22,254 bases of DNA from a virus. A program made the translations under genes and the position numbers. Each line of letters begins with the position of its first letter. Position 1 is the first letter of the stretch. The stretch spans positions 1-22,254 of the IMG/VR virus record IMGVR_UViG_3300025892_000177. One strand, given 5' to 3'. Under the pieces are notes generated by a model, which did not search any database, was not told the origin of the DNA, and was given only the letters and a program-made list of their open reading frames with translations. Of the stretch, positions 3,105 through 20,202 are shown in pieces.

Positions 3105-3773
3105 AAGATAATTTACTAAAGTTTCTTTACAGTCATACCATTTGCTTTGGCTATGATTTTTTACTTTAAAATCTAAGTTATATTCATTACCCTCAACTAA
3201 CTTTTCCACTTTCCAATCAGTAGGATGTTTACTACTAAAATGTGTGATCAAATTACCGTCACTTATAAAAGTATAAACATGAAAGTCACGTGTTCTAATA
3301 TAACGTGCTTCGTGTAACAATGCACGTACAGATACTTTGGCACCTTTAGTACCAATGTGTGTTGAATTACTTATTTCTTTAACAAATAACTCTCTTTGTA
3401 TTTCTTGTTCGTAAAGTGAAGGCAACGGAGCAATGAACCCTAAGTCTTTGCGTGTAACTGTATCTTTTGTAATAATTTGGTATATACGGTCTGTAAAGTC
3501 ATTTGAAGAATCCGATAACACTTTAAATATTAATCCTTGATAATGGTTATAAATGTCATTTGTCATATCTTGACAACTACCATCAATAAAGAAATCACCA
3601 GTATCATAAAAGTCTTTCATCATTTGTTTATTACTCTTTGCAGTAACTGACTCTAATGAACCGTTTTCTGTTTTGATATATTCCCAAGTATTTTCTTTTC
3701 TATACGACCCGATAATATTATGTGCTTGTACAGCCAGATTGATAGCATCTTTAATTGGAATTTCTTTTTGCAT
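3090..3773 (-). CDS. Minus-strand protein of unknown function, 227 aa
   Basis: This is the only gene on the minus strand. On that strand the start ATG is preceded by AAAGGAAA, a good ribosome binding site, and about 24 bases of leader from a consensus promoter at 3805-3833. The protein is soluble, 227 residues, with no membrane segment. Visible stretches include an N-terminal helix (KDAINLAVQAHNIIGSYRK) and a central segment (KVSVRALLHEARYIRTRDF) that recalls a domain acting on or binding nucleic acid, but I cannot identify a motif. The strong independent promoter and reversed direction suggest separate, probably early, expression. It could be an accessory gene gained independently of the flanking + strand block. 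Function unknown. Confidence 0.8.
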   Translation of the reverse strand: MQKEIPIKDAINLAVQAHNIIGSYRKENTWEYIKTENGSLESVTAKSNKQMMKDFYDTGDFFIDGSCQDMTNDIYNHYQGLIFKVLSDSSNDFTDRIYQIITKDTVTRKDLGFIAPLPSLYEQEIQRELFVKEISNSTHIGTKGAKVSVRALLHEARYIRTRDFHVYTFISDGNLITHFSSKHPTDWKVEKLVEGNEYNLDFKVKNHSQSKWYDCKETLVNYLKISD

Positions 3774-3804
3774 TTTGGATTTCCTTTTGCCTAACTATAC
3801 TTAT

Positions 3805-3833
3805 ATTATAGTTGGTTTTACCACTCTTGTCAA
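3805..3833 (-). promoter_or_regulatory. Consensus sigma70-type promoter for the minus-strand gene
   Basis: Reading the minus strand: TTGACA (3833-3828), a 17-base spacer, then TATAAT (3810-3805). Both boxes match the bacterial consensus exactly. The predicted start falls about 25 bases before the ATG of the minus-strand gene. Confidence 0.85.
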
Positions 3834-3860
3834 CCACTTTTATTTTGGTAAAATAAAAAC

Positions 3861-3889
3861 TTGATTTTTACAACGATTTGTTGTATTAT
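3861..3889 (+). promoter_or_regulatory. Sigma70-type promoter for the 3950 gene
   Basis: TTGATT (3861-3866), a 17-base spacer and TATTAT (3884-3889). It faces away from the minus-strand promoter, making a divergent pair. The spacer holds an inverted repeat (3869-3885), listed separately. The predicted start gives a leader of about 55 bases before the ATG at 3950. Confidence 0.75.
3869..3885. promoter_or_regulatory. Inverted repeat in promoter spacer, candidate operator
   Basis: TACAAC (3869-3874) and GTTGTA (3880-3885) are perfect reverse complements separated by GATTT. The element fills the spacer between the -35 and -10 boxes of the + strand promoter and touches the -10 box. A repressor bound here would block that promoter. 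No partner protein is identified. Confidence 0.45.
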
Positions 3890-3949
3890 GTATATAGTAT
3901 GTTTAATTTAATTAAGCACTTTTTTAATAATCTAAACAAGGAGATAGAA

Positions 3950-4261
3950 ATGGCTAGAACAAAACAATTTGTTGTATACACTAGAGAATTTCAAAAAGGA
4001 AACGTAAACTCAAAAGTTGGCGTGTTCGTTGAAGAAGCAAACAAATACATGGTTAACGGATCAGTTAACGGTGGAGCAATTAAATTTGCAAATTTAAAAA
4101 TGACTAGACCAACTGCTACAAAAAAATTAGTAGATGCTGGTTATGACTTTAATGTAAGAGTACTAGGTACTACATCATTACAAGGCGCAATGGCAATGAA
4201 AGATCAGTTAGTTAACTTGTTATCAAGTACTAACAAAACTGTAATCAATCAAGCGGCGTAA
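3950..4261 (+). CDS. Small basic protein of unknown function, 103 aa
   Basis: The start is the ATG at 3950, eight bases after an AAGGAG site. The frame is open further upstream, but that part contains the promoter itself, so longer versions are unlikely. The protein has no Cys and no membrane segment. It shows strands in the first half (QFVVYTREF, KVGVFVEEANKYMVNGSV) and helices after that (TATKKLVDAGYDF, QGAMAMKDQLVNLLSS). I recognise no family. It has its own promoter upstream and a hairpin downstream, so it is probably a single-gene transcript expressed early. A small regulatory or host-takeover role is possible but not shown. Confidence 0.8.
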   Translation: MARTKQFVVYTREFQKGNVNSKVGVFVEEANKYMVNGSVNGGAIKFANLKMTRPTATKKLVDAGYDFNVRVLGTTSLQGAMAMKDQLVNLLSSTNKTVINQAA

Positions 4262-4274
4262 ATTGGACAAACAG

Positions 4275-4294
4275 AGTGGCGTTTCGACGCCACT
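4275..4294 (+). terminator. Stem-loop with UUCG loop after the 3950 gene
   Basis: AGTGGCGT (4275-4282) pairs perfectly with ACGCCACT (4287-4294) around a TTCG tetraloop, 14 bases after the stop codon. Only a short T-poor tail (TTGGTT) follows. It may be an imperfect terminator or an mRNA 3'-end stabiliser. Confidence 0.55.
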
Positions 4295-4310
4295 TTGGTT
4301 AAACAAAGTC

Positions 4311-4339
4311 TTTACAAACTTATTATTAGACTGTATTAT
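4311..4339 (+). promoter_or_regulatory. Sigma70-type promoter for the winged-helix-like gene
   Basis: TTTACA (4311-4316), a 17-base spacer and TATTAT (4334-4339), between the hairpin at 4275-4294 and the gene at 4390. The leader would be about 45 bases long and contains a second inverted repeat (4351-4369). Confidence 0.7.
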
Positions 4340-4350
4340 ATACAAGTGAA

Positions 4351-4369
4351 TGTGAAAATAGTTTTCGCA
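4351..4369 (+). promoter_or_regulatory. Hairpin in the leader of the DNA-binding protein gene
   Basis: TGTGAAAA (4351-4358) pairs with TTTTCGCA (4362-4369), including one G-T wobble, around TAG. It lies in the 5' leader between the promoter and the ribosome binding site (CTAGGAG). It could be an RNA control element or an operator for autoregulation. Confidence 0.35.
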
Positions 4370-4389
4370 TAGACAACTAGGAGAAAATA

Positions 4390-4995: not shown

Positions 4996-6360
4996 ATGGA
5001 TTTCAGAGAACTAATAAACAAACTTGATTCTTTTAATGTAGAAGCAAAGAAAGAACCAGAGAGGATGCAGTTTAGTGATGCAATTAATCACGTAAACGAT
5101 ATCACTTTTACGCCACCAACACCAGCACAAAACGAATACAGCATTGCTAACAATGTAGCATTTAAAGGCAAAGACCTAACTGATCCAAAAGTAAAACTTG
5201 CATTATTTCAAGATGAACTAAAACGCTCTCCAGGCAGATTGTTAGGTGAAATTGCACAACGCATTAAACCATCATCAGATGCACAAATTGAATTAAGTAT
5301 GTTTGTTGGTGAACTCAGTGAAAAAGAAAAAGGCACGATGTCTAAAGAACAACAGACACTTGCTATCGCAGTTATCAAACAAGCAATACGCAGTATGGAT
5401 ATTGAAAGAGATGCTGATCAAAGCACGTACAAAGATAGTGACGAGCCTGATGCATCTGAAATGGAATCAACGAACGAAGCAGAAAAGCGTTGGAAACAAA
5501 CTAGTATGTCTCCAGAAGAAGCAATTAAAAAATACGGCAAAGAACACGTGAAAGTTAAAAAAGGCGCATTGCGTAATGGTGATGACATGGTAGAAGTACA
5601 TGTTGAATCAATGAGTGAAGCAGACTTTGACAGAAGTAGTGTAACCTATGATGAAGTATTACCATTTGTAAAGATGACTTACAAAGAGTTACTAACTGAT
5701 CTTCAAACTGCAAGAAAAGATATAGAAACTTACAAAGCAGGTGGCGACACTGGAGAAGAAGGTGGCGACATAGATATGGTAATGCCATACCTTAGAGATT
5801 TAAAAGATATGCAAGTGAAAGTGAAAGCGATTCTTGATAATCCAGACATGGACATCGAAACTGTTGTTGACTATATGATGCCAGCAGATTTAGATACATC
5901 TCCAAGAGAAGATCTAATTGGAAGATTTAAAAAATCATTTGCTAAAGATCCACAACTTGCAAAAAAATTATTTAAAGATCCTCAATTAGATTTTTATTCA
6001 GAAGGCGTAGAAGCAACTGAAGATGCAGAATGGTTTAAAGGACTAACTGATGTATCATTTAATGGTGATGAGTTTTATGAAGCATTTGGTTGGATTGAAG
6101 AAAATGACGAAAATGTTGTAGAAGCAGAATACCAAGGACGTACTGTTAAACTAAACAAACCAATGCGTGGTGATGTTAAAAAGTTTAAAGTATACGTTAA
6201 GAATCCAAAAGGTAATGTAGTTAAAGTTAACTTTGGTGATCCGGATATGAGAATTAAAAAATCTAATCCAGCAAGACGTAGAAGTTTCCGTGCTAGACAC
6301 AACTGTGACAATCCTGGTCCTAAGACTAAGGCACGTTACTGGTCATGTAGAAAATGGTAA
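4996..6360 (+). CDS. Large putative head-associated protein with Cys-containing basic C-terminal module, 454 aa
   Basis: The ATG follows AAGGAGAGTATAACT. The N-terminus (MDFRELINKLDSF) fits the M-x-[LFI]-x-[ED]-[LIV] pattern shared by several neighbours. Residues ~50-330 are acidic and helical with coiled-coil character (EKEKGTMSKEQQTLA; YKELLTDLQTARKDIE). The C-terminal ~75 residues form a distinct basic module. It has a beta-rich part (GRTVKLNKPMRGDVKKF, NPKGNVVKVNFGDPDM) and then an Arg/Lys/aromatic tail with two Cys (RARHNCDN and RYWSCRKW). I recall this tail in marine T4-like phage proteins, where it is of unknown function. A late-type promoter box lies upstream. A scaffold/core or internal head role is my inference from acidity, promoter type and position. 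Confidence 0.85.
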   Translation: MDFRELINKLDSFNVEAKKEPERMQFSDAINHVNDITFTPPTPAQNEYSIANNVAFKGKDLTDPKVKLALFQDELKRSPGRLLGEIAQRIKPSSDAQIELSMFVGELSEKEKGTMSKEQQTLAIAVIKQAIRSMDIERDADQSTYKDSDEPDASEMESTNEAEKRWKQTSMSPEEAIKKYGKEHVKVKKGALRNGDDMVEVHVESMSEADFDRSSVTYDEVLPFVKMTYKELLTDLQTARKDIETYKAGGDTGEEGGDIDMVMPYLRDLKDMQVKVKAILDNPDMDIETVVDYMMPADLDTSPREDLIGRFKKSFAKDPQLAKKLFKDPQLDFYSEGVEATEDAEWFKGLTDVSFNGDEFYEAFGWIEENDENVVEAEYQGRTVKLNKPMRGDVKKFKVYVKNPKGNVVKVNFGDPDMRIKKSNPARRRSFRARHNCDNPGPKTKARYWSCRKW

Positions 6361-6366
6361 TTACAC

Positions 6367-6726
6367 ATGTTATTAAAAGAACTTTTTACAGCAGACAGCG
6401 ATAATAGTACTCCACAATACGACTTAATAGATGATATTAGTTTCTTCATTGATAATGACGATTCAATCCATAAAGAATTCTTTTTACCTGCTATAGCAGA
6501 TCTAAAAAGAAAAAATATTGTTGAAAAAGATTCAATTGAAGAAGTTGCACCATACTTTGAAGCAATGGTTACAGCAGGTTGTATGAAGTACAACGAAACT
6601 TATAATATATCTGGCAAGACTGAAGAAGTTTACACACAAGAGTTAATGTCTAGTATATGTCACAAACTAGCGGAAAAACACCTACCACACATTAAAGACG
6701 GCGCATACGATACCAAGGAGGCTTAA
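6367..6726 (+). CDS. Acidic helical protein of unknown function, 119 aa
   Basis: The ATG lies six bases after the preceding stop, with no strong Shine-Dalgarno sequence, so translation is probably coupled. The N-terminus (MLLKELFTADSD) carries the block's shared pattern and resembles the start of the T4 internal protein Alt (MELITELFDED, from memory). The rest is acidic and alpha-helical: DDSIHKEFFLPAIADLKRK, EEVAPYFEAMVTAGC, ELMSSICHKLAEKH. No enzymatic motif is visible. The stop codon directly abuts the ATG of the nucleotidyltransferase gene. Packaging in the head is a guess from the N-terminus. Confidence 0.8.
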   Translation: MLLKELFTADSDNSTPQYDLIDDISFFIDNDDSIHKEFFLPAIADLKRKNIVEKDSIEEVAPYFEAMVTAGCMKYNETYNISGKTEEVYTQELMSSICHKLAEKHLPHIKDGAYDTKEA

Positions 6727-7593
6727 ATGCTACTCAACGAACTGCTTGAAGCACAACCAAAGAAGACAGCAGTAGTTGCTTGGGGAAGAATGAATCCGCC
6801 AACTATAGGTCACCAAAAAGTTATAGATGTTGTTAATCAACATGCACAAAAGTTTATGGGTGATCCTATTTTGTTTTTAACTAAAACACAAAAACCAAAA
6901 ACAGACCCATTATCATTTGCAGAAAAATTACATTTTGCTCAAGAAATGTTTAATGTACCCGTAGATAAAAATACTAGTATAAAAACTATTATTCAAATGT
7001 TTCAACATCTACAAGGTAAAGGTTATGATAATGTTATACTTGTTGCAGGAAGTGATAGAGTACAACAATATCAAGATTTAATTGACAAGTACAATAATAA
7101 GCCAGATACTAAAGGTGAAGTTCCGTTTACGTTTGCAAATGCAAAAGTAGTAAGCAGTGGAGAACGTGATCCTGATGCTGAAGGTGTACAAGGCATGAGT
7201 GCAAGTAAACTAAGACAGTTTGCCGCAGACGATGATTTTACTAGTTTTGTACAAGGTATTTCAGGAAATGAAACTCTTGCTAAACAAATGTTTGCTAGAG
7301 TAAGAAAAGGAATGGGTCTTGAAGTTAACGAAATTATGGGATTTGCAACTAGAACTCCAAAAAGAAATGTAGTTAAAAGACGGCCTCCAGAACCAGAAGA
7401 ATTAAGTGTTGCAGATAAAATTAAAAAACGTAGAGCAATGGCCAATAAGGTAGGTGTAGATAAAGCATTCAAACATAACAGTTTACAGAAACAAGAAGCC
7501 GCAGGTGTTGGCATTGTTACAAAGCAAAACACAACTAAAGATGTTAAAAAAGGTACTCTTAAAAAAATGATGAAAGCGTACAAACTAATATGA
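6727..7593 (+). CDS. Nucleotidyltransferase of the cytidylyltransferase/NMNAT superfamily, 288 aa
   Basis: The ATG directly follows the previous stop; the ribosome site AAGGAGG lies inside the upstream gene. After an N-terminal MLLNELLEAQ signature, residues 14-35 show the HIGH-superfamily hallmark GRMNPPTIGH (H29 in TxGH). The fold continues with VILVAGSDRVQQY and the C-terminal loop motif GMSASKLRQFA, like the SxSxxR of NMN adenylyltransferases and cytidylyltransferases. Known chemistry: transfer of a nucleotidyl group to a phosphorylated or nucleotide substrate with release of pyrophosphate. The substrate cannot be decided from sequence. Residues ~200-288 are a basic extension (VVKRRPPEPEELS; GVGIVTKQNTTKDVKKG) not needed for catalysis in the family. 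It overlaps the next gene by ATGA. Confidence 0.88.
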   Translation: MLLNELLEAQPKKTAVVAWGRMNPPTIGHQKVIDVVNQHAQKFMGDPILFLTKTQKPKTDPLSFAEKLHFAQEMFNVPVDKNTSIKTIIQMFQHLQGKGYDNVILVAGSDRVQQYQDLIDKYNNKPDTKGEVPFTFANAKVVSSGERDPDAEGVQGMSASKLRQFAADDDFTSFVQGISGNETLAKQMFARVRKGMGLEVNEIMGFATRTPKRNVVKRRPPEPEELSVADKIKKRRAMANKVGVDKAFKHNSLQKQEAAGVGIVTKQNTTKDVKKGTLKKMMKAYKLI

Positions 7594-7805
7594 CATTAGA
7601 TGAGTTAAAAAGATTAGCAGGTGTAGATGTTGTTAGAAATGATAATCATCAAACATTAGAAAACATGTCACATACTGCACAAGAACTAAAAGATAAAGAA
7701 CGTAAGTTAGGTGTCAAACCCGGTGACAAAGAATGGTTTGAATTATGGTTTTCAAGACCTTATATGACTGGCGCAGGATTTAAAGGATTTAGAGGACGTA
7801 AATGA
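7590..7805 (+). CDS. Small protein of unknown function, 71 aa
   Basis: It is joined by 4-base ATGA overlaps to both neighbours, so three genes are translationally coupled. The N-terminus (MTLDELKRLAGVD) fits the shared block pattern. The C-terminal half (GDKEWFELWFSRPYMTGAG) is aromatic-rich and followed by a basic GFRGRK end. I recall the WF-LWFSRP stretch from marine myoviruses, where the protein is uncharacterised. No catalytic residues are recognised. It probably functions with the nucleotidyltransferase and nucleotidase, or in the same virion compartment. Confidence 0.78.
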   Translation: MTLDELKRLAGVDVVRNDNHQTLENMSHTAQELKDKERKLGVKPGDKEWFELWFSRPYMTGAGFKGFRGRK

Positions 7806-8509
7806 GATTATTTGAAATCAGTAGTAATTCAAAATCTGAAATCTATGTAGACATGGATGGTGTACTTGTTGACTTCTTTGGTGCCTGGGCAAAACTTATG
7901 GGTACAAAAGACTTTCGTGATATTAAAGATATCGATGCAGGTCTTCAAGCAATTAGAGATGCAGACAACTTTTGGTTAGATCTCGAACCTACTCCTAACG
8001 CAGGAAAACTTTTGGCTTTGATTCAAAAACATAAAGGCAGTTATACTATTTTAAGTTCGCCTTTGGCTGACGATCCTAGATCAGAACCACATAAACGTAT
8101 GTGGGTGAAAAACAATCTTAAACAGTTTCCACCTAAATCAGTAATCATCACAGGAAACAAAGCCAAGTATGCACAGCAAAGTGATGGTACTCCTAACATA
8201 CTAATAGATGATTTTGGGCAAAATATTGATAAATGGAACGCCGCCGGCGGACTTGGAGTCAAGCACAAAGATCATAAATTCGAAAGAAGTTTTAAAGCAA
8301 TACTATTACACTTAGATAGTAATAATGTAAAAGAAAACTTTGCCGACGGTAAAAAAAAGGGTAAAAGTCGTCCAGGAAGAGTAAAGAAGTCAGGTGCTAG
8401 TTGTAACGGGTCAGTTACAAGTTTAAGAGCAAAGGCTAAAAAAGCAAGTGGTGAAAAGGCTAAAATGTATCACTGGTGTGCGAATATGAAATCAGGAAAG
8501 AAGAAATAA
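7802..8509 (+). CDS. HAD-superfamily 5'(3')-nucleotidase-like protein with Cys-containing C-terminal module, 235 aa
   Basis: The ATG overlaps the previous stop (ATGA). Motif I is DMDGVLVDF with catalytic Asp17 and Asp19, motif II YTILSSP, a conserved Lys lies in the following helix (MWVKNNLKQF), and motif IV is NILIDDFGQNIDKW. This order and size match the NT5C/phage deoxyribonucleotidase branch, which dephosphorylates nucleoside monophosphates. The HAD domain ends near residue 178. A lysine-rich module follows (GKKKGKSRPGRVKKSG), then a Cys-containing segment ending KMYHWCANMKSGKKK. I recall this tail on other marine phage proteins. The N-terminus MRLFEI fits the block's shared signature. 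Substrate not determined. Confidence 0.87.
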   Translation: MRLFEISSNSKSEIYVDMDGVLVDFFGAWAKLMGTKDFRDIKDIDAGLQAIRDADNFWLDLEPTPNAGKLLALIQKHKGSYTILSSPLADDPRSEPHKRMWVKNNLKQFPPKSVIITGNKAKYAQQSDGTPNILIDDFGQNIDKWNAAGGLGVKHKDHKFERSFKAILLHLDSNNVKENFADGKKKGKSRPGRVKKSGASCNGSVTSLRAKAKKASGEKAKMYHWCANMKSGKKK

Positions 8510-8700
8510 TGTTAAGTAAACAATGTAGACTACACCTAGAAGAACAAGGTGAAACAGGATTACAGCATATGAGGAAAGCAATTAAAACAGCAGTAAAATT
8601 ACAACTGCTAGTTCCTGCACTACTAGTACATAGTATTGCTCCAAGATGCTTTACTAATACAGCAACTGATGTTATGAAAAACATTCTTAAAGATAGGTAA
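8509..8700 (+). CDS. Small DUF6356-like protein, 63 aa
   Basis: I chose the ATG at 8509, which overlaps the preceding stop by one base (TAATG); a longer GTG-started version would lie inside the nucleotidase gene. The protein begins LSKQCRLHLEEQGETGLQH and has a central hydrophobic helix (LQLLVPALLVHSIAPRCF), then ends with a charged helix. The pattern LHLEE-GETGLQHM matches what I remember of the DUF6356 family, small proteins common in T4-like marine phages and some bacteria. A peripheral membrane association is possible. Function unknown. Confidence 0.78.
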   Translation: MLSKQCRLHLEEQGETGLQHMRKAIKTAVKLQLLVPALLVHSIAPRCFTNTATDVMKNILKDR

Positions 8701-8703
8701 ATA
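8696..8703 (+). promoter_or_regulatory. Possible late-type promoter box GGTAAATA
   Basis: GGTAAATA overlaps the stop codon of the upstream gene, five bases before the ATG at 8709. It partly matches the T4 late box. As at 2417-2424, TAA followed by ATA may create it by chance. Confidence 0.3.
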
Positions 8704-8708
8704 TCAAT

Positions 8709-9278
8709 ATGCGTTTAAAAGACTTAGTAGAAGCAGTAAAAAAATTAGAACCAAGTAAATCACGTGATCCTAATTGGCGTGATATGGAAGCACTACGTAA
8801 AAGCGGTGCATCTGGCTCTCATAAAGATAAAACTAAGACTATTCCACGTAAAGAAAAATACAAAAAAACACCTATGGAACAACAGTTTGAAAGTTTTGTA
8901 TCTGAAAAGATTACTAAAGATACTGAAATGGGTGATGTTATTAAAGATTTCTACAAAAGCGATGCTCCGCAATTTAAAGGTAAGAGCAAAGCAAAACGTA
9001 GACAAATGGCTATTGCGGCCAAACTTAGTCAAGAATCTAGCGATATATTCAAAGGATTAGAACAAGTTGAAGAAACAGCAACAGCAGGAGCAACAGTTTC
9101 TGCTAGTATTGCATCAGTTGCAAGTCCGCATTTAGCAATAGGTGACGAAAAAACACGTAAAAAATACGGTTTAGTAGGCGGTTTACCTAATCCTCCTCGA
9201 GCAAAAAAGCAAAAGCCAACAGATAATGCTCTTAATATGAAAGACACATCTATCTTCGGCGGACCATTAAAACGATAA
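8709..9278 (+). CDS. Modular basic protein, putative internal head protein, 189 aa
   Basis: The ATG gives MRLKDLVEAVKKLE, matching the block's shared N-terminal pattern. The protein is a string of short, very basic modules: a DPNWRDMEALRKSGASGSHK stretch, then KTIPRKEKYKK, then DAPQFKGKSKAKRRQMAIAA, then an Ala/Ser/Val segment (TVSASIASVASPHLA). The end is NALNMKDTSIFGGPLKR. I recall similar KGKSKEKRRQMAIAAKL modules in other marine phage proteins. No enzyme motif, Cys or membrane segment is visible. Low complexity, high charge and position favour a DNA-associated or packaged protein. That is inference. Confidence 0.82.
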   Translation: MRLKDLVEAVKKLEPSKSRDPNWRDMEALRKSGASGSHKDKTKTIPRKEKYKKTPMEQQFESFVSEKITKDTEMGDVIKDFYKSDAPQFKGKSKAKRRQMAIAAKLSQESSDIFKGLEQVEETATAGATVSASIASVASPHLAIGDEKTRKKYGLVGGLPNPPRAKKQKPTDNALNMKDTSIFGGPLKR

Positions 9279-9281
9279 ATA
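9274..9281 (+). promoter_or_regulatory. T4-late-type promoter box GATAAATA
   Basis: GATAAATA lies in the 38-base gap between genes, 35 bases before the ATG at 9317. A TATAAT follows at 9286-9291, but no acceptable -35 box lies 16-18 bases before it. I therefore favour a late-type promoter over sigma70. Confidence 0.55.
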
Positions 9282-9316
9282 TTCGTATAATACAAAACAC
9301 ATTATAGGAGCAATCG

Positions 9317-9769
9317 ATGATTAATGAAGACAAGTACGATGAACCAGCATCAAAGTACGAAGATGAAATGCTTGCCAATCAGGTTGCATACATCAAATAC
9401 GCAGTAGAAGAAATTCATGACCATGTACACAAGGGTGGAACATTCCCTGAGTGGTTTCAAAACAAATTCAGTGGTGTACACGAAAAAGTAAAAACACTTC
9501 ATGCTTATATGGAAGGCGAGCGTATGCAAGCCAAAGAACGTGAACGTATGATGAGTATGAAAGACATGAAAGATGATTATTTTGAATCACTAGAACGTAA
9601 ACTTAACGAGTCTAAAGGTATTTGCAAAGAATGTGGTAACCCAAGTTATACTACATTGCCTGAAGAAAAGCAAAAAGGTGTTGACGGTAAAGTATGCTGG
9701 AAAGGCTACAAGCGTATGGGCACCAAGAAAAAAGGCGGAAAGACTGTAGACAACTGTGTCAAAATGTAG
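9317..9769 (+). CDS. Helical protein with Cys-rich C-terminal module, 150 aa
   Basis: The ATG follows TAGGAGCAATCG. Residues 1-95 are helical with several His and acidic residues (YEDEMLANQVAYIKYAVEEI; HDHVHKGGTFPEWFQNK; KVKTLHAYMEGERMQ). I recall this domain as common in marine myoviruses. The tail has CKECG, then CWKGYKRMGTKKKGGKTVDN and Cys-Val-Lys-Met. Four Cys are clustered there, enough for a metal site or disulfides. Unlike most neighbours it does not start with the M-x-L-x-E-L signature. A late-type promoter lies upstream. Function unknown; virion-associated by context. Confidence 0.82.
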   Translation: MINEDKYDEPASKYEDEMLANQVAYIKYAVEEIHDHVHKGGTFPEWFQNKFSGVHEKVKTLHAYMEGERMQAKERERMMSMKDMKDDYFESLERKLNESKGICKECGNPSYTTLPEEKQKGVDGKVCWKGYKRMGTKKKGGKTVDNCVKM

Positions 9770-9778
9770 GGAGTAATT

Positions 9779-10363
9779 ATGGCAGATTTACAAAGCATTT
9801 TAAATAAATTTACTGAGTTAGGAATCGAAAATAAAGGACTTACTGTAGATGCTCCGCAACAAGGTCAAGCGTTACAAGAACAAAACAATAATCAAAGCAC
9901 AGATGCTAACTCTCATGCACGTATGGTTGCAGAAAGTATTAAAGGAAAACATATTCCTGGTGTAAGTGATACTAGTGCAAGTGATATGGCCGCACTAGCA
10001 GGAGTAGGTAATACAACTCCAAATGTGCAGAAAAGTGTTGAAGTTGTTCAAACTTATCCGCAAAATACTGTAGACAATAAGTGGCATGAAGTAGACAGTA
10101 GACTTTCAAAAATTGAAAATACACTAGCAAAAGTGTTTGAAAGCCTTGAAGGTTTAAAACAAATGAGTAACGAAGAATATGAAGAAAAAAGAAAAGCGTT
10201 ACAAGATATACAATTAAATCCTGAAACAAACAAAGATCCTAAACTTAAAAAAGAACTAATAAGACGTAGACTAGAATTAGAAAAAGATCATAAATCAGGT
10301 AAAATTACAACAGAACAATCTCTAACAAAAGGATTTGCAAGTTTTTTGAAAGAGTTTGAGTAA
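9779..10363 (+). CDS. Protein with C-terminal coiled coil, unknown function, 194 aa
   Basis: The ATG follows GGGAGTAATT, nine bases after the previous stop. The first ~90 residues are Gln/Asn/Ser/Thr-rich and probably flexible (QQGQALQEQNNNQSTDANSH). Residues ~100-130 form a heptad-like helix (VDSRLSKIENTLAKVFESLE), followed by a charged helical segment (KKELIRRRLELEKDHKSGK) and a hydrophobic end FASFLKEFE. This suggests an elongated, oligomeric protein. I recognise no family. It is coupled by TAATG to a 51-residue gene. A structural or scaffold-like role is plausible from composition only. Confidence 0.8.
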   Translation: MADLQSILNKFTELGIENKGLTVDAPQQGQALQEQNNNQSTDANSHARMVAESIKGKHIPGVSDTSASDMAALAGVGNTTPNVQKSVEVVQTYPQNTVDNKWHEVDSRLSKIENTLAKVFESLEGLKQMSNEEYEEKRKALQDIQLNPETNKDPKLKKELIRRRLELEKDHKSGKITTEQSLTKGFASFLKEFE

Positions 10364-10518
10364 TGAAAATATGTGAAGTAACAGATTACTTCTACGGATT
10401 AGATCCGGCACATATGTCATACAAGCATAAAATAGGCGATGTGTATGGCAAGAAAAATTTAAAAGTACCACATGCAAAACTGCATGTAAAAAAGAAACAA
10501 AAGAAACAAAAGAAATAA
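10363..10518 (+). CDS. Very small lysine-rich protein, 51 aa
   Basis: The ATG shares one base with the preceding stop (TAATG), and the gene ends three bases before the next ATG, so it fills the gap exactly. It begins MKICEVTDYFYGLDP, fitting the M-x-[LFI]-x-[ED]-[LIV] pattern of the block. It ends in a polybasic tail (KKKQKKQKK). Such a tail suggests contact with nucleic acid. Function unknown. Coupling on both sides and the shared N-terminus support it as real. Confidence 0.7.
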   Translation: MKICEVTDYFYGLDPAHMSYKHKIGDVYGKKNLKVPHAKLHVKKKQKKQKK

Positions 10519-10521
10519 AGT

Positions 10522-11175
10522 ATGGCATTCTTAGTACATAACTTACCTCCTGTTGAAGTTTATGTGAAAAAAGAATATCTATATGACCACCAAAAAGGGC
10601 ATGGAGAAGTTACTCCTGGTATTTGGATTAGTATTAGAAGTATAATGGGCAAAGCATTATACGTAGAAACATTACTTACAGAATACGGTGCATTGTACGA
10701 TAAACTACCTATTAGTGCGTTTGTATGGAAAGATGATTACTTACACAGTGACCAATTACCTTTAGACACACTACAAATATGGGATTGTTTTGATTATGAT
10801 ATTACATTAATTAAAAAGCCTATGTTAGCAGACTGTGAATTCTTTGGTAAAGATAAAAAGATGCACAAAGGCGAATATATGTTTACACTTGATACTTGTC
10901 ATGCACAACACTCAACACTAAATGTAAATTTTAGTGAACACGATCCAGAACACAAAAGTTTTAACTTTATTAAACTAGATAACGGACAGTTTGCCGCACA
11001 ACCTAATAATAGAGTTATTTTTACAGACCAAAGTTTAGTAATTGGAGATCGAAAGATGCCAGACTTTAAAGTTTGTACACAAAATTATACAGTAGAAAAT
11101 AATCCTAAATGGTCAGTTGGACACACTGACGAATGGGCATATAAATCAAAAGATGAGGCAGAAAACATTGGCTAA
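10522..11175 (+). CDS. Conserved marine T4-like phage protein, unknown function, 217 aa
   Basis: The ATG lies three bases after the 51-aa gene. The N-terminal part (AFLVHNLPPVEVYVKKEYLY, GEVTPGIWISIRSIMGKALY) has strands and aromatic residues. I recall near-identical stretches in proteins of marine T4-like phages annotated as hypothetical. The middle has acidic/aromatic stretches (HSDQLPLDTLQIWDCFDYD) and a beta-rich second half. Five Cys are scattered without a CxxC motif. It could be a virion protein from its place in the late block. No enzymatic role is claimed. It overlaps the methyltransferase gene by a few bases. Confidence 0.82.
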   Translation: MAFLVHNLPPVEVYVKKEYLYDHQKGHGEVTPGIWISIRSIMGKALYVETLLTEYGALYDKLPISAFVWKDDYLHSDQLPLDTLQIWDCFDYDITLIKKPMLADCEFFGKDKKMHKGEYMFTLDTCHAQHSTLNVNFSEHDPEHKSFNFIKLDNGQFAAQPNNRVIFTDQSLVIGDRKMPDFKVCTQNYTVENNPKWSVGHTDEWAYKSKDEAENIG

Positions 11176-12611: not shown

Positions 12612-15281
12612 TTGAGTTATGTAGACGCACTCTGGGATCGTGATAAAGATATTATCAAAGTTGTAGAGAGAAACAAAAAAGGCGAAAGAGAGTTTCGCGA
12701 ATTCCCCGCAAGATATGTGTTTTATTATGGCGACGGCAAAGGTAAACAAAAAAGTACTTTTGGTGATCCGGTAAGTCGTGTTGTTTGTAAAAGTTGGAAA
12801 GACTTTCTTAAGGAACAAAAGATTAATAAACATCGCGGACTATATGAAGCAGACATCAATCCTGTATACAGACTACTAGAAGAAAACTATTTAGGTCAAG
12901 ATGCACCTAATCTAAACGTTGCATTTTTTGATATTGAGGTTGACTTTGATCCTGAACGTGGTTATAGTTCACCAGAAGATCCTTTTACTGCCATTACTGC
13001 AATTACAGTACATTTACAATGGCTTGATAGTCTTATTACACTAGCACTTCCTCCTAAAACACTTACTATGGAACAAGCAAAGGAAGAATGTAAAGACTTT
13101 CCTAATACATATTTGTTTGAAACAGAAGCAGAAATGCTTGATACGTTTTTAGATTTAATTAAAGACGCTGATATTTTATCAGGCTGGAACAGTGAAGGTT
13201 ATGATATTCCTTATACTGTTAATAGAATTACAAGAGTTTTAAGTAAAGAAGACACAAGACGTTTTTGTTTATGGAACGCTTATCCTAAGAAAAGAGTATA
13301 TGAAAAGTTTGGTAGAGAACAAGAAACATATGATCTTATAGGACGTCAACACTTAGATAGTCTTGAACTATATCGTAAGTACACATATGAAGAACGACAC
13401 ACTTATCGACTAGATGCTATTGGTGAACTAGAAGTAGGTGAAAAGAAAACTGAATATGAAGGTACATTAGATCAACTATATAACAATGACTTTAAAACAT
13501 TTATTGAATATAACAGACAAGACGTTCTGTTGTTAGATAAACTTGATAAGAAATTACGCTTTATTGATCTAGCAAATGAACTTGCACACGCAAACACAGT
13601 GTTGCTACCAACGACAATGGGTGCTGTTGCAGTTACAGAACAAGCAATTATTAACGAAGCACACAGGCGTGGTTATGTTGTACCCAATAGAGTACATAGA
13701 GAGCCAGGTTCATCGCAGGCGGCTGGTGCATATGTTGCATATCCTAAGAAAGGATTGCATGATTGGATTGCATCAATGGATTTGAATTCACTATATCCTT
13801 CTGTTATTAGAAGTTTGAATATGGATCCAGCAACAGTTATAGGACAACTTAAACAAAACCATACAGAAGAATTCATAGGCGAACAAATGAACTTTAAAAA
13901 GAAGTCATTTGCAGGTGCTTGGGAAGGAAAGTTTGGTAGTCTTGAATATGATTATGTAATGGAACAACGCAAGGACGTTGAAATTACTATTGATTGGGAA
14001 GGTGGCGAAAGCGATACATTAAGTGCCGCAGAAGTTTACAAACTAATTTTTGATAGTAATCAACCATGGATGGTTAGTGCTAACGGTACATTGTTTACAA
14101 CAGAGTTTGAAGGTATTATTCCTGGACTACTAAAACGTTGGTATGCTGAACGTAAAGAAATGCAGGCTAAAAAGATTGCGGCACAAGATGCAGGCAATAA
14201 AATTGAAACTGCTTTTTGGGATAAAAGACAACTTGTTAAAAAGATTAACCTAAATAGTTTATATGGAGCAATCCTAAACCCAGGGTGTAGATTCTTTGAT
14301 CATAGAATTGGGCAATCAACTACACTTACAGGTCGTGCTATTGCAAAACATATGAGTGCAAAAGTAAATGAAATTATTACAGGCGAATATGATCACGTAG
14401 GTAAAAGTATTATATATGGTGATACAGACTCTGTGTACTTTAGTGCTTATACTAGTTTACGTGCAGAAATTGACAAAGGAGATATTCCTTGGAATAAAGA
14501 AAGTGTAATTCAACTGTATGATCAAATATGTGAAGAAGCAAATGTAACTTTTCCAAAGTTTATGGGAAATGCATTTCACTGTCCTAAAAGTAGAGGTGAA
14601 GTTATTGCCGCTGGTAGAGAAGTTGTTGGTGAAAAAGGATTGTTTATTACTAAAAAACGTTATGCAATTCTAATATATGACAATGAAGGATTTAGAACAG
14701 ATACAGATGGTAAGCCTGGTAAAGTAAAAGCAATGGGTTTAGATCTTAAACGTTCTGATACTCCTGTGTTTATGCAAGACTTTTTAAGTGAAGTATTGTT
14801 AGCAGTACTAACAGATGGCACGGAAGTTGAAATACTTGATATGATCACAGATTTTAGAACTAAATTTAAAGCAAGGCCTGGTTGGGAGAAAGGTTCTCCT
14901 AAACGTGCAAACAACGTAACAGACTATCTTGCTAAACTTAAAAAATTAGGCAAAGTAAACATGCCTGGACACGTTCGTGCTTCTATTAATTGGAACACAT
15001 TAAAAGATATGAACGGTGACAAATTTAGTATGCAGATTGTGGACGGTATGAAAGTTATTGTTTGCAAACTAAAACAAAATCCAATGGGATATACTTCGGT
15101 TGCATACCCAACGGACGAACTAAGACTACCAAAATGGTTCCAAGAACTACCTTTTGAAGATGATGAAATGGAAACTGCGATCATTGATAAAAAGTTAGAT
15201 AATCTAATTGGAGTGCTAGATTGGGATATTAAATCAACCGAACAGAAGAATACATTCAATAATTTATTTGACTTTGAATGA
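12612..15281 (+). CDS. 43: DNA polymerase, family B, T4 gp43-type, 889 aa
   Basis: The start is TTG, six bases after AAAGGAG. Length matches T4 gp43 (898 aa). Exonuclease motifs: Exo I FFDIEVDFD (~105-113), Exo II ILSGWNSEGYDIPY (~188-201) and Exo III YNRQDVLLLDK (~300-310), with the metal-binding acidic residues present, so proofreading should be active. Polymerase motifs: A SMDLNSLYPS (~388-397), B KKINLNSLYGA (~543-553) and C YGDTDS (602-607), with two Asp for catalysis. The C-terminus NTFNNLFDFE resembles the gp43 tail that docks on the sliding clamp. It is transcribed from its own sigma70-like promoter through a structured leader. The clamp gene follows. Confidence 0.98.
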   Translation: MSYVDALWDRDKDIIKVVERNKKGEREFREFPARYVFYYGDGKGKQKSTFGDPVSRVVCKSWKDFLKEQKINKHRGLYEADINPVYRLLEENYLGQDAPNLNVAFFDIEVDFDPERGYSSPEDPFTAITAITVHLQWLDSLITLALPPKTLTMEQAKEECKDFPNTYLFETEAEMLDTFLDLIKDADILSGWNSEGYDIPYTVNRITRVLSKEDTRRFCLWNAYPKKRVYEKFGREQETYDLIGRQHLDSLELYRKYTYEERHTYRLDAIGELEVGEKKTEYEGTLDQLYNNDFKTFIEYNRQDVLLLDKLDKKLRFIDLANELAHANTVLLPTTMGAVAVTEQAIINEAHRRGYVVPNRVHREPGSSQAAGAYVAYPKKGLHDWIASMDLNSLYPSVIRSLNMDPATVIGQLKQNHTEEFIGEQMNFKKKSFAGAWEGKFGSLEYDYVMEQRKDVEITIDWEGGESDTLSAAEVYKLIFDSNQPWMVSANGTLFTTEFEGIIPGLLKRWYAERKEMQAKKIAAQDAGNKIETAFWDKRQLVKKINLNSLYGAILNPGCRFFDHRIGQSTTLTGRAIAKHMSAKVNEIITGEYDHVGKSIIYGDTDSVYFSAYTSLRAEIDKGDIPWNKESVIQLYDQICEEANVTFPKFMGNAFHCPKSRGEVIAAGREVVGEKGLFITKKRYAILIYDNEGFRTDTDGKPGKVKAMGLDLKRSDTPVFMQDFLSEVLLAVLTDGTEVEILDMITDFRTKFKARPGWEKGSPKRANNVTDYLAKLKKLGKVNMPGHVRASINWNTLKDMNGDKFSMQIVDGMKVIVCKLKQNPMGYTSVAYPTDELRLPKWFQELPFEDDEMETAIIDKKLDNLIGVLDWDIKSTEQKNTFNNLFDFE

Positions 15282-18235: not shown

Positions 18236-19483
18236 ATGAAATTAATACACCCCTTTTCTCAGCCCAAGGACGAACATCCTAAAGTTAAAGAAATGAATGG
18301 ACACTTCCTAGTAGGTGAAACTCAGCAATGGTATGACCTAAGTGGCGGAACAGGATGTAATATTTTTGGATTTACACAGCCTGAGATACAAGCCAAAGTA
18401 GCAGAAACAAGTTTTCAGTTTCCAAACGATGATTGGACAACTAAAAGTACTGTATGGTATGAACTAGAAGATACTCTTAAAAAAGTTTTACCTAACACAT
18501 ACACAGGGTTTATACCTGCACTTACAGGCAGTGATAGTGTAGACAATTCATTAAAAATTGCATGGAGATATTGGACTAAAAAAGAACAATCTCGCAGACG
18601 TACAGTACTTGTAAGAAAAGGAAGTTTTCATTCAGGTAGTATTACTGGTTGGCAAATGACAGATGATCAAGATTGGATTTTAGGAAATTGGCCACATATT
18701 GATTTTGTAGACTTCTTTGATGATAACTTTGATGCTATGTTTACAAAACACAAAGATACCCTTGCAGGTATTATGTTAGATACCGTAAATTGGTACAATG
18801 GTATTAGTGAAGTAAGTGACGAAGTATTAGAAAAAATACAAACTGCAAGAAAACAAACAGGTTGCTTGTTAATAGTAGATGAAATACTTACAGGCATGTG
18901 GCGTATGGGACATTTTTCACATAGTATACATAAAAACTTAAACCCCGATATGATCTGTTTTGGAAAAGCACTTACAGGTGGGTTTGGAACTTTGGCTATT
19001 ACCGTATTACATAAAAACATTCACGATACAATAAGTGCATTTGATCCTAGCCTATGGGATAACTTTCCTATTGCAGTAGGTAATACAAGGGCACAATCAA
19101 ATACAGGTGCTAGAGCAACAATAGAAACAATTAATAAATGTATTGAAGAAGATATTGGTACAAAAGTAATAAATGATGTTGTACCGTTTGTTGAACGTAT
19201 TGCAAACATACTAAAACAAGTAGATACATTTGAAGTAACACACAGCAACAGTATTCTTTACTGTAACTTTGTGAACAATTATGACAATGATCAATGTAAA
19301 ATATTATCAACATTTTTAAACAGTCATAAATTATGGAACTCAGAACACACAAGAATTTGGTTCTTGAGTTTCTACGACCTAAATAAACAAGAAGCAGACT
19401 ATATTGAACATACATTTCAAAAGTTTGTAACCCTTGTTAATAATGGTAAAATATGGGACCAAAATAACTGGAAAAGTAATTGA
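18236..19483 (+). CDS. Class III PLP-dependent aminotransferase, 415 aa
   Basis: The ATG lies four bases after the previous stop; the upstream GTAGAG is a weak ribosome site. The fold-type I layout is clear: substrate strand DLSGGTGCNIFGF (~34-46), phosphate-binding ALTGSDSVDNSLKIA (~95-109, compare SGTEAVE), KGSFHSGSITGW (~128-139), cofactor-binding VDEILTGMWRMG with Asp215, and the Schiff-base lysine in CFGKALTGGFG (Lys244). Length is normal for this family, which includes GSA aminomutase and acetylornithine/diamine aminotransferases. The substrate is undetermined. Possible roles are a modified base, sugar or glycan. The enzyme looks intact. Confidence 0.92.
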   Translation: MKLIHPFSQPKDEHPKVKEMNGHFLVGETQQWYDLSGGTGCNIFGFTQPEIQAKVAETSFQFPNDDWTTKSTVWYELEDTLKKVLPNTYTGFIPALTGSDSVDNSLKIAWRYWTKKEQSRRRTVLVRKGSFHSGSITGWQMTDDQDWILGNWPHIDFVDFFDDNFDAMFTKHKDTLAGIMLDTVNWYNGISEVSDEVLEKIQTARKQTGCLLIVDEILTGMWRMGHFSHSIHKNLNPDMICFGKALTGGFGTLAITVLHKNIHDTISAFDPSLWDNFPIAVGNTRAQSNTGARATIETINKCIEEDIGTKVINDVVPFVERIANILKQVDTFEVTHSNSILYCNFVNNYDNDQCKILSTFLNSHKLWNSEHTRIWFLSFYDLNKQEADYIEHTFQKFVTLVNNGKIWDQNNWKSN

Positions 19484-19508
19484 CAACTGTACAGAAAGAA
19501 TGTATTAT
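19480..19508 (+). promoter_or_regulatory. Sigma70-type promoter for the 19583 gene
   Basis: TTGACA (19480-19485), a 17-base spacer and TATTAT (19503-19508). It overlaps the aminotransferase stop codon. Transcription would start near 19515, which excludes the ATG at 19511 and points to a downstream start for the next gene. Confidence 0.82.
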
Positions 19509-19582
19509 AAATGAATAATCAACGAGAACCTTACTACGATTATATGTTAAGAAGAACCAGAGAAGAAAACGAAAAGGTAATT

Positions 19583-19966
19583 ATGGAAAACGCAAAAAGA
19601 ATGATATGGGTAACCTTTACTAAAGAAGGTATTCACAAGTATCCTGCGGCACTGGACGATCCGGCACTTGCTACAGGTGATGAATATGATGTTAGTTTTT
19701 TGGGATATCCCCACAGACACATATTTCATTTTAAAGTAGGTATCACTGTTACACACAACGACAGAGATATAGAATTTATTCAATTTAAACGTTGGCTAGA
19801 AAAACTTTATCAGGAGAAAACACTTGAACTAGATTATAAGAGTTGTGAAATGATGAGTGATGATTTATATGAACAAATTATCGCAAAACACCCAGGTCGT
19901 GAAGTCCATATTGACGTAAGTGAAGATGGAGAAAACGGCGCACACATTGAGTACTATGCAAAGTAA
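19583..19966 (+). CDS. Conserved marine phage protein of unknown function, 127 aa
   Basis: An open frame begins at an ATG at 19511, but that ATG lies 3 bases after the -10 box of the promoter here, has no ribosome site, and would precede the RNA start. I chose ATG 19583, five bases after AAAAGGT; the ATG at 19601 is another option. The protein starts MENAKRMIWVTFTKEGIHKY and is conserved in marine T4-like phages as I recall (FLGYPHRHIFHFKVGITV; RDIEFIQFKRWLEKLY; SCEMMSDDLYEQI). It looks alpha/beta with several His. No known motif. The start is uncertain; reality of the gene is not. Confidence 0.75.
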   Translation: MENAKRMIWVTFTKEGIHKYPAALDDPALATGDEYDVSFLGYPHRHIFHFKVGITVTHNDRDIEFIQFKRWLEKLYQEKTLELDYKSCEMMSDDLYEQIIAKHPGREVHIDVSEDGENGAHIEYYAK

Positions 19967-19980
19967 AAAAGGAGATAACA

Positions 19981-20202
19981 TTGTCTTACCTTGCAAAACG
20001 TCCAGAGATTGTAAAAATCTTTGATGATCTCGATTCCTTCCGCGACTTTTGTCGATTTGAAGGGTTTAAATTTAACGAAAAGTTCCTTTACAAAAGGGAA
20101 ACAAGAGAGTGGAGGGCATACGAAGGTCGTAACAATCCACGGAAAGCAAAACAACGTGTTCACAAAAATCGTAACGCTAAGAACCGAGGACCAAAGCGAT
20201 AG
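19981..20202 (+). CDS. Small basic protein of unknown function, 73 aa
   Basis: The gene starts at TTG, right after AAAAAAGGAGATAACA, a strong ribosome site. The first half is helical with acidic and aromatic residues (EIVKIFDDLDSFRDFCRFEG). The second half is very basic (RETREWRAYEGRNNPRKAKQ; HKNRNAKNRGPKR), suggesting RNA or DNA contact. I recall similar short phage proteins of unknown role. The next gene's ribosome site overlaps its stop codon. Confidence 0.75.
   Translation: MSYLAKRPEIVKIFDDLDSFRDFCRFEGFKFNEKFLYKRETREWRAYEGRNNPRKAKQRVHKNRNAKNRGPKR

Follow-up and report, generated by a model that had tools for sequence, protein, structure and literature searches.

A shared protein start in a gene block of an uncultured T4-like marine phage, probably a dialect of the T4 capsid-targeting sequence

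In the 22,254-base virus record IMGVR_UViG_3300025892_000177 (analyzed over its whole length, hereafter the window), a block of ten genes at positions 4996-10518 encodes seven proteins that share the start M-x-[LFI]-x-[ED]-[LIV] (hereafter the strict motif). This signature is confirmed as real, and the block is probably a cargo operon whose products carry a dialect of the capsid-targeting sequence (CTS) of phage T4. We consider, with a probability of about 0.68, that this lineage has its own variant of that sequence in the shared start, which loads cargo into the phage head, as a sequence-only reading of the same DNA had proposed. The targeting proposal gains from T4-like leaders on virion-detected homologues of one block protein and from enrichment of the motif in a near-complete relative, while the exact pattern turned out to be lineage-specific and the description of the block as "late" found no support.

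The signature in the window and in related contigs

Independent gene calling placed ten genes in the block and 24 with complete starts elsewhere (a truncated ClpA gene was dropped), and the strict motif is present in 7/10 of the former against 0/24 of the latter (Fisher p = 2e-5). All seven N-termini singled out by the sequence-only reading are encoded where it had placed them, each starting with ATG. As the motif had been picked by inspection, the pattern search was repeated with correction, covering three-class patterns over 14 residue classes at positions 2-8 and 200 relabellings of the window genes. The motif came out as the top three-class pattern for the block (score 7), while the relabellings reached a maximum of 5 (i.e., 0/200 reached 7) and 36 contiguous ten-gene blocks from cyanophage S-CREM2, part of T4 and the relative G016 (described below) a maximum of 4. 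The block genes are as follows:

4996..6360, + strand: 454-residue protein, leader MDFRELINKLD, C-terminal basic cysteine (Cys) module (phrog_7595)
6367..6726, + strand: 119-residue acidic protein, leader MLLKELFTAD
6727..7593, + strand: 288-residue NMNAT/cytidylyltransferase-like protein, leader MLLNELLEAQ, L/I-x-E at residues 5 and 8
7590..7805, + strand: 71-residue basic protein, leader MTLDELKRLAG
7802..8509, + strand: 235-residue NT5C-type (HAD) 5'-nucleotidase with a basic Cys tail, leader MRLFEISSNS
8509..8700, + strand: 63-residue basic protein, no motif (MLSKQCRLHL)
8709..9278, + strand: 189-residue basic protein, leader MRLKDLVEAVKK (LVE↓A, the arrow marking the predicted cut)
9317..9769, + strand: 150-residue protein, no motif, C-terminal CWKGY module
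9779..10363, + strand: 194-residue protein, no strict motif (MADLQSILNKFT)
10363..10518, + strand: 51-residue very basic protein, leader MKICEVTDYF

The domains behind the signature, which had been called unrelated, are largely so, but some block proteins have short basic modules in common. The protein at 6727 matches phrog_3041 (5.3e-47) and no solved structure, the one at 7802 gives weak 5'-nucleotidase matches among solved structures, and NCBIfam returned no match for nine block proteins. At the C-termini of 4996-6360, 7802-8509 and 9317-9769 stand the short basic Cys modules ARYWSCRKW, KMYHWCANMKSG and CWKGYKRMGTKKKGGK, the last of which is also found in two cyanophage virion proteins.

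By gene content, the window is a fragment of a T4-like phage, with a ClpA-type ATPase (truncated at the left edge), a family-B DNA polymerase and, by our reading of the sequences, an apparent T4-type sliding clamp and GTP cyclohydrolase; the phage is an uncultured, T4-like marine one. The polymerase (12612-15281) shares 42-51% identity with the 30 best named phages listed, the top named match among these being Sinorhizobium phage Phosso, and phages with large genomes (Sinorhizobium Phosso, Agrobacterium Atu_ph07), not cyanophages, head the named matches listed.

Close relatives of the window are present in IMG/VR. If the motif were as frequent elsewhere in a genome as in the block, the proposal would lose its basis, and this is not the case in the near-complete relative G016 (IMGVR_UViG_3300020419_001178, 145.7 kb, 139 called genes, of which one, cut at the left edge, was left out), where it starts 3/7 block genes and 0/131 others. 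Contigs that had no anchor gene (a homologue of the gene at 10522) or no block gene at all were dropped before the pooled counts, as were genes truncated at contig ends; the motif is seen in 83/207 distinct block N-termini and in 4/438 outside, figures inflated by related sequences. As the pooled rows are related, they were collapsed, together with seven longer contigs, to families built on residues 16 onwards. Families containing a match then number 5/19 in the block and 7/309 outside (p = 2e-4), and those with at least half of their starts matching 3/19 and 6/309 (p = 0.011). Owing to common basic modules, many block proteins fall into a single family of 168, and the test is therefore probably conservative. 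The earlier statement that nothing outside the block matches thus holds in the window (0/24) but not in the relatives, where matches are rare yet present (7/309 families).

The leader recurs on several non-orthologous block genes. Inserted genes with no homologue in the window have the same type of start (MRICEVTEV, MRNLIAIVEA, MRARDFIIEG, MKFIEFSEN, MRSQEFVTEL), and a relative's gene that shares a module with 7802 starts MRAVEFLTEK. The signal seems looser than the motif first described: M-x-x-x-[ED]-[LIVF], a pattern chosen after inspection, fits 109/189 block and 39/780 outside starts.

Some other proteins in these contigs are recorded here as separate observations. Outside the block, proteins that read as Cu/Zn superoxide dismutase-like start MNLQEITDSRC or MNFREISDTHC (G006, IMGVR_UViG_3300028196_001321, 31735-32289; G009, IMGVR_UViG_3300025771_002941, 1314-1868) and are possible head-packaged superoxide dismutases. 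A putative zinc peptidase (HEMIH) starts MRLYEVQQ (G011, IMGVR_UViG_3300006990_000027, 3698-4381; G006, 19315-19998). In contig L213 (16483-17583), a KWDG-motif protein, ligase-like by reading, starts MRAFEFLTEA and by eye is like S-SM1 SSM1_189 (T4-GC71), a neighbor of the S-SM1 nucleotidyltransferase.

T4-like leaders, cyanophage virions and the prohead protease

The sequence-only reading had cited two T4 leaders, and both are correct (IPIII MKTYQEFIAEA, Alt MELITELFDED). Among T4 internal proteins (IPs), IPII and IPIII start MKTYQEFIAEA and IPI starts MKTFKEFTST, and gp24 starts MAKINELLRES. Incorporation of IPIII is reported to require its first 10 residues only, residues 4 and 7 being the most important for targeting and 8 and 10 for processing (PMC9026906). 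Within the block, the 6367 leader MLLKELFTAD resembles that of Alt and also the start MLLKEFFYFD of a relatives' gene that follows the portal gene (the gp67 position). The leader MKNFKEYLSES, MSKTFTDYLKEA or MTKKFVDYLKEA precedes the C-terminal module of 4996 (66-77% identity over 103-119 residues) in several relatives, and a more distant relative of 4996 (34% over 338 positions) has the leader MKTFQEYLKEA. Thus, one and the same module pairs with the lineage leader and with a near-T4 leader. A matrix was built from nine leaders found outside the lineage, which we took by eye from virion proteins of T4 and cyanophages. It tells the block apart from other genes (window p = 0.004, G016 p = 0.01), and the 9779 protein, which has no strict motif, ranks second of 34 window proteins on matrices of nine and ten outside leaders. 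On the proposed likeness to T4 leaders the results diverge: the nine-leader matrix and the near-T4 leaders in relatives favor it, whereas a matrix from T4 alone separates the block weakly and the strict motif misses the T4 IP and Alt leaders.

Homologues of the 6727 enzyme were detected by mass spectrometry (MS) in the virions of three cyanophages, as reported for S-SM1 (PMC3037559), in which T4-GC190 is SSM1_190, for S-CREM2 gp154 (PMC10665884) and for S-SZBM1_140 (PMC9146016). The 6727 protein shares 37% identity over 191 positions with SSM1_190 (E 4e-34), i.e., they have a homologous nucleotidyltransferase domain of the T4-GC190 family. NMNAT-like virion proteins are also described for S-SCSM1 (ORF91) and, by citation, S-CBWM1 (PMC9602691), and these are likened to 6727 by description. 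The three virion homologues start MKKFSAFLNEA (S-SM1), MKNFSSFLTEA (S-CREM2 gp154) and MRFRQFIIEA (S-SZBM1_140), i.e., with T4-like leaders. Among 80 contigs that encode S-SM1-like enzymes, residues 1-11 always fit MK[KSN]F[SN]AFL[TNSIV]EA, and conservation in these nucleotidyltransferases is 0.93 at residues 2-11, 0.81 in the linker that follows and 0.89 in the catalytic domain. The CWKGY module of 9317 also occurs in MS-detected S-SZBM1_139 (70% of 23 residues) and S-CREM2 gp160 (60% of 25), whose genes lie near the nucleotidyltransferase gene, that of S-SZBM1_139 right beside it. The virion presence demonstrated by others thus covers homologues of one block member and proteins carrying the module of another.

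For S-CREM2, we compared 52 proteins on the published virion MS list with the other 167 of its 219 annotated proteins. The form MKx[FY]xxF, common to the three T4 IPs, is found in 3/52 virion and 0/167 other proteins (p = 0.013) and a looser form, which adds gp13, in 4/52 and 0/167 (p = 0.003), both rules having been written after the S-CREM2 starts were seen. The three proteins are a SAM hydrolase, an APH-like kinase (its GTG start read as M) and the cytidylyltransferase. One of the earlier patterns gave 5/52 virion and 4/167 other proteins (p = 0.037). The start of gp136 is MQTFSMFFSED.

Two further cyanophage observations stand on their own. The virion-detected Cas9-like nuclease of S-CREM2 (OR473000, 7704-10313, minus strand) has LRFASFMAEAA within its first 30 residues, and its true start may lie nearer to this segment than annotated. 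In S-SZBM1 (OL473597, 122311-123125), two small genes by a virion structural gene start MKSFKSFLSES and MKTFKQYITEA, and their products are absent from the MS list.

No head genes were seen in the 22-kb window, and a PF03420/PF07068 search of 15 related contigs, all of them fragments, found none, with control genomes giving no match either; longer related contigs then supplied head gene clusters (G016, G017, G018). G016 encodes a gp21-type protease (PF03420, 1.7e-26), gp23 and gp20. In three relatives, the gp23 pro-region has YLAE↓A or YLAE↓S aligned with T4 FLTE↓A, which we take to be the T4 gp23 cut site, and the proteins in the scaffold position contain 16, 22 and 23 L/I-x-E sites compared with 6.5, 7.9 and 8.2 in shuffles. 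For T4, gp21 is reported to cleave after L/I-x-E and the gp23 propeptide to be 65 residues long (PMC9026906). Given the gp23 alignment and the excess of sites in the scaffold position, the protease of this lineage has probably kept the L/I-x-E preference of T4. Such a site falls within residues 1-8 of 6/7 motif proteins in the window. Among related rows, L/I-x-E is found within residues 2-12 in 109/189 block and 83/780 outside starts, and in 46/115 and 79/770 once proteins with the strict motif are removed.

In all three relatives whose head cluster was read, the portal gene is directly followed by a gene with the start M[IL]L[RK]EFFYFD. In T4, core protein gp67 is encoded directly after the portal gene, and these small post-portal proteins are candidate gp67-type core proteins:

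G016, 100296-100538: small post-portal protein, M[IL]L[RK]EFFYFD start, candidate gp67-type core protein
G017, 82192-82440: small post-portal protein, same start, candidate gp67-type core protein
G018, 78203-78448: small post-portal protein, same start, candidate gp67-type core protein

Head loading, its alternatives and its wider meaning

We postulate that the leader forms a short amphipathic N-terminal helix, with hydrophobic residues three and four apart, acidic ones between and often L/I-x-E at its end, which would dock unrelated cargo onto the prohead scaffold core and would then be clipped after the glutamate by the gp21-type prohead protease. The cargo (the NMNAT-like nucleotidyltransferase, the 5'-nucleotidase and the small basic Cys-module proteins) would be left free in the head beside the DNA and enter the next host together with it. 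We infer docking, cleavage, a location in the head and not the tail, and ejection. As a speculation, the NMNAT-like enzyme and the nucleotidase could restore or reshape nicotinamide adenine dinucleotide (NAD) and nucleotide pools at entry. By analogy with the basic IPs of T4, which were assumed to bind DNA (PMC9026906), the basic Cys-rich tails may do so too.

Several points weigh against head loading. On the side of the motif, three of the ten block genes in the window (8509, 9317, 9779) do not have it, nor do some orthologues of window genes (that of 7802 in G015 starts MSQTDNTPTEIY, and MDFRTLI is found in G011), and other inserted block genes have no leader (MAILSNINPN, MKVTSIPGMG, MKILAILITG). 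Of the seven outside families that contain a match, two (MTFNDI, MTLEDV) show no sign of being head cargo, and the 4996 protein has no L/I-x-E in its first 30 residues. As for T4, the strict motif matches no IP or Alt leader, being present in 1/140 proteins called in 100 kb of that genome (MRLEDLQEELKK, presumably UvsY), and a T4-only matrix separates the block weakly (window p = 0.08; G016 p = 0.06). In S-CREM2, the strict motif is found in 0/52 virion and 3/167 other proteins and is therefore termed a lineage dialect, an earlier T4-form pattern based on spacing alone gives 5/52 and 6/167 (p = 0.09), just 5 of the 26 non-structural virion proteins have the T4-spaced pattern, and the T4-only matrix does not separate these 26 as a class from the 167 (p = 0.20). 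No clear leader is present on the MS-detected neighbors S-SZBM1_139 and S-CREM2 gp155, gp156 and gp160, two proteins with good leaders (S-SZBM1_191 and _192) went undetected in the virion, and virion MS cannot separate head from tail or from trace contamination. Nor was the label "late" supported: a scan of the window for TATAAAT[AG] gave two matches, neither of which lies 150 bases or less upstream of a gene start; the 28 and 18 matches in G016, eight of them near a gene start, do not exceed our estimate from base composition.

The best of the alternatives, though unlikely, is a general role of the leader as an assembly or partner-binding helix that directs the proteins to another structure (tail, baseplate, replisome or membrane patch) and not to the prohead core. 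Virion MS, which does not place proteins inside the head, agrees with it, as does the position of the G016 block, which adjoins replication and metabolic genes and lies tens of kilobases from the head cluster; the resemblance to T4 head-cargo leaders, the L/I-x-E excess and the post-portal gene of all three relatives (M[IL]L[RK]EFFYFD) argue against it. We consider it less probable still that the shared start goes back to a single ancestral N-terminal segment, which duplication or recombination spread through the block and which has no present role in packaging. Module shuffling does occur in the block, given the short basic modules shared across its proteins, but codons differ while residue classes persist across divergent relatives, and in the 80 cyanophage-type nucleotidyltransferases the leader is more conserved than the linker and about as conserved as the catalytic domain; a function-free reading also does not predict the virion association seen in S-CREM2. 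The starts could also reflect how a coupled operon is translated (through start-codon context or codon choice) and not a protein signal. Coupled translation is conceivable, as several of the block genes overlap or abut; however, the codons after the ATG vary at synonymous sites among the seven starts, and it is thus the peptide that is under selection, and none of the 24 other window genes has the pattern, though some of them also abut or overlap, which makes this explanation very improbable. A chance pattern chosen post hoc, for which the motif's definition by inspection and its just three loose positions could speak, is scarcely credible in view of the permutations, the low scores of the other 36 blocks and the repetition in relatives.

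Identifying the accessory proteins that marine phages bring into the cell with their DNA by virion proteomics needs an isolate. If the shared start is indeed a variant of the T4 CTS, a leader readable from sequence would allow head cargo to be predicted in uncultured phages and would explain the presence of enzymes without an evident structural role (nucleotidyltransferase, SAM hydrolase, kinase, Cas9-like nuclease) in cyanophage virions. A more tentative extension, to which we give somewhat less than even odds, is that marine T4-like phages share a general head-loading code, i.e., a short N-terminal leader that the prohead core recognizes and the prohead protease removes, in dialects that differ by lineage (MKxFxxFLxEA for cyanophages, M-x-[LI]-x-E-[LIV] for the window lineage). 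The NMNAT-like enzyme, the nucleotidase, the SAM hydrolase, the protein kinase, the Cas9-like nuclease and perhaps the Cu/Zn superoxide dismutase would be among its users, which a dedicated cargo operon would gain and lose by exchange, and such "auxiliary" genes would become injected effectors.

Comparison with known systems

It has been published before, in general terms, that T4-like phages package a variety of proteins by means of the CTS (PMC9026906, PMC3012670). In the literature covered, mostly without subscription papers, we found no description of a leader of this kind, either for cyanophages or for the window lineage. One close likeness to the block leaders is the CTS of T4 IPI, IPII and IPIII: in both, a short N-terminal leader with hydrophobic residues three and four apart stands on differing cargo, which includes small basic proteins, an L/I-x-E gp21 site lies in or near the leader, and some relatives of the window carry nearly the letters of T4 (MKNFKEYLSES and MKTFQEYLKEA compared with MKTYQEFIAEA). 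However, the helix of the window lineage begins one residue earlier (M-x-h-x-[ED]-h, h being hydrophobic), most of its leaders do not have the MKT[FY] start, and its cargo, the packaging of which is predicted here from sequence, is an operon of enzymes and Cys-module proteins. T4 Alt, a head-packaged ADP-ribosyltransferase, is alike in being an enzyme cargo and in its start (MELITELFDED compared with MLLKELFTAD of 6367), whereas the block enzymes are nucleotidyltransferase- and nucleotidase-like and Pfam, PHROGs and NCBIfam did not identify an ADP-ribosyltransferase among the block proteins.

The cyanophage cytidylyltransferase/NMNAT of the virion (T4-GC190) shares with the 6727 enzyme a homologous catalytic domain, CWKGY-module proteins nearby and a CTS-like start, and is MS-detected in virions; it differs in host and phage lineage, and two of its three leaders are of the MKxFxxFLxEA type. 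Such proteins are called virion-associated or regulatory in the cyanophage papers, the parts of which available to us describe no N-terminal signal. In the giant phages SPN3US and phiKZ, head-loaded proteins likewise have N-terminal propeptides that, as reported, are cut after glutamate by a gp21-related protease, and two SPN3US paralogues have an identical 15-residue start (PMC5694885). By the same account, SPN3US differs in that several of its head propeptides are longer than 100 residues (127, 125 and 124 in three of them) and in its cleavage motif, A-x-E (PMC5694885).

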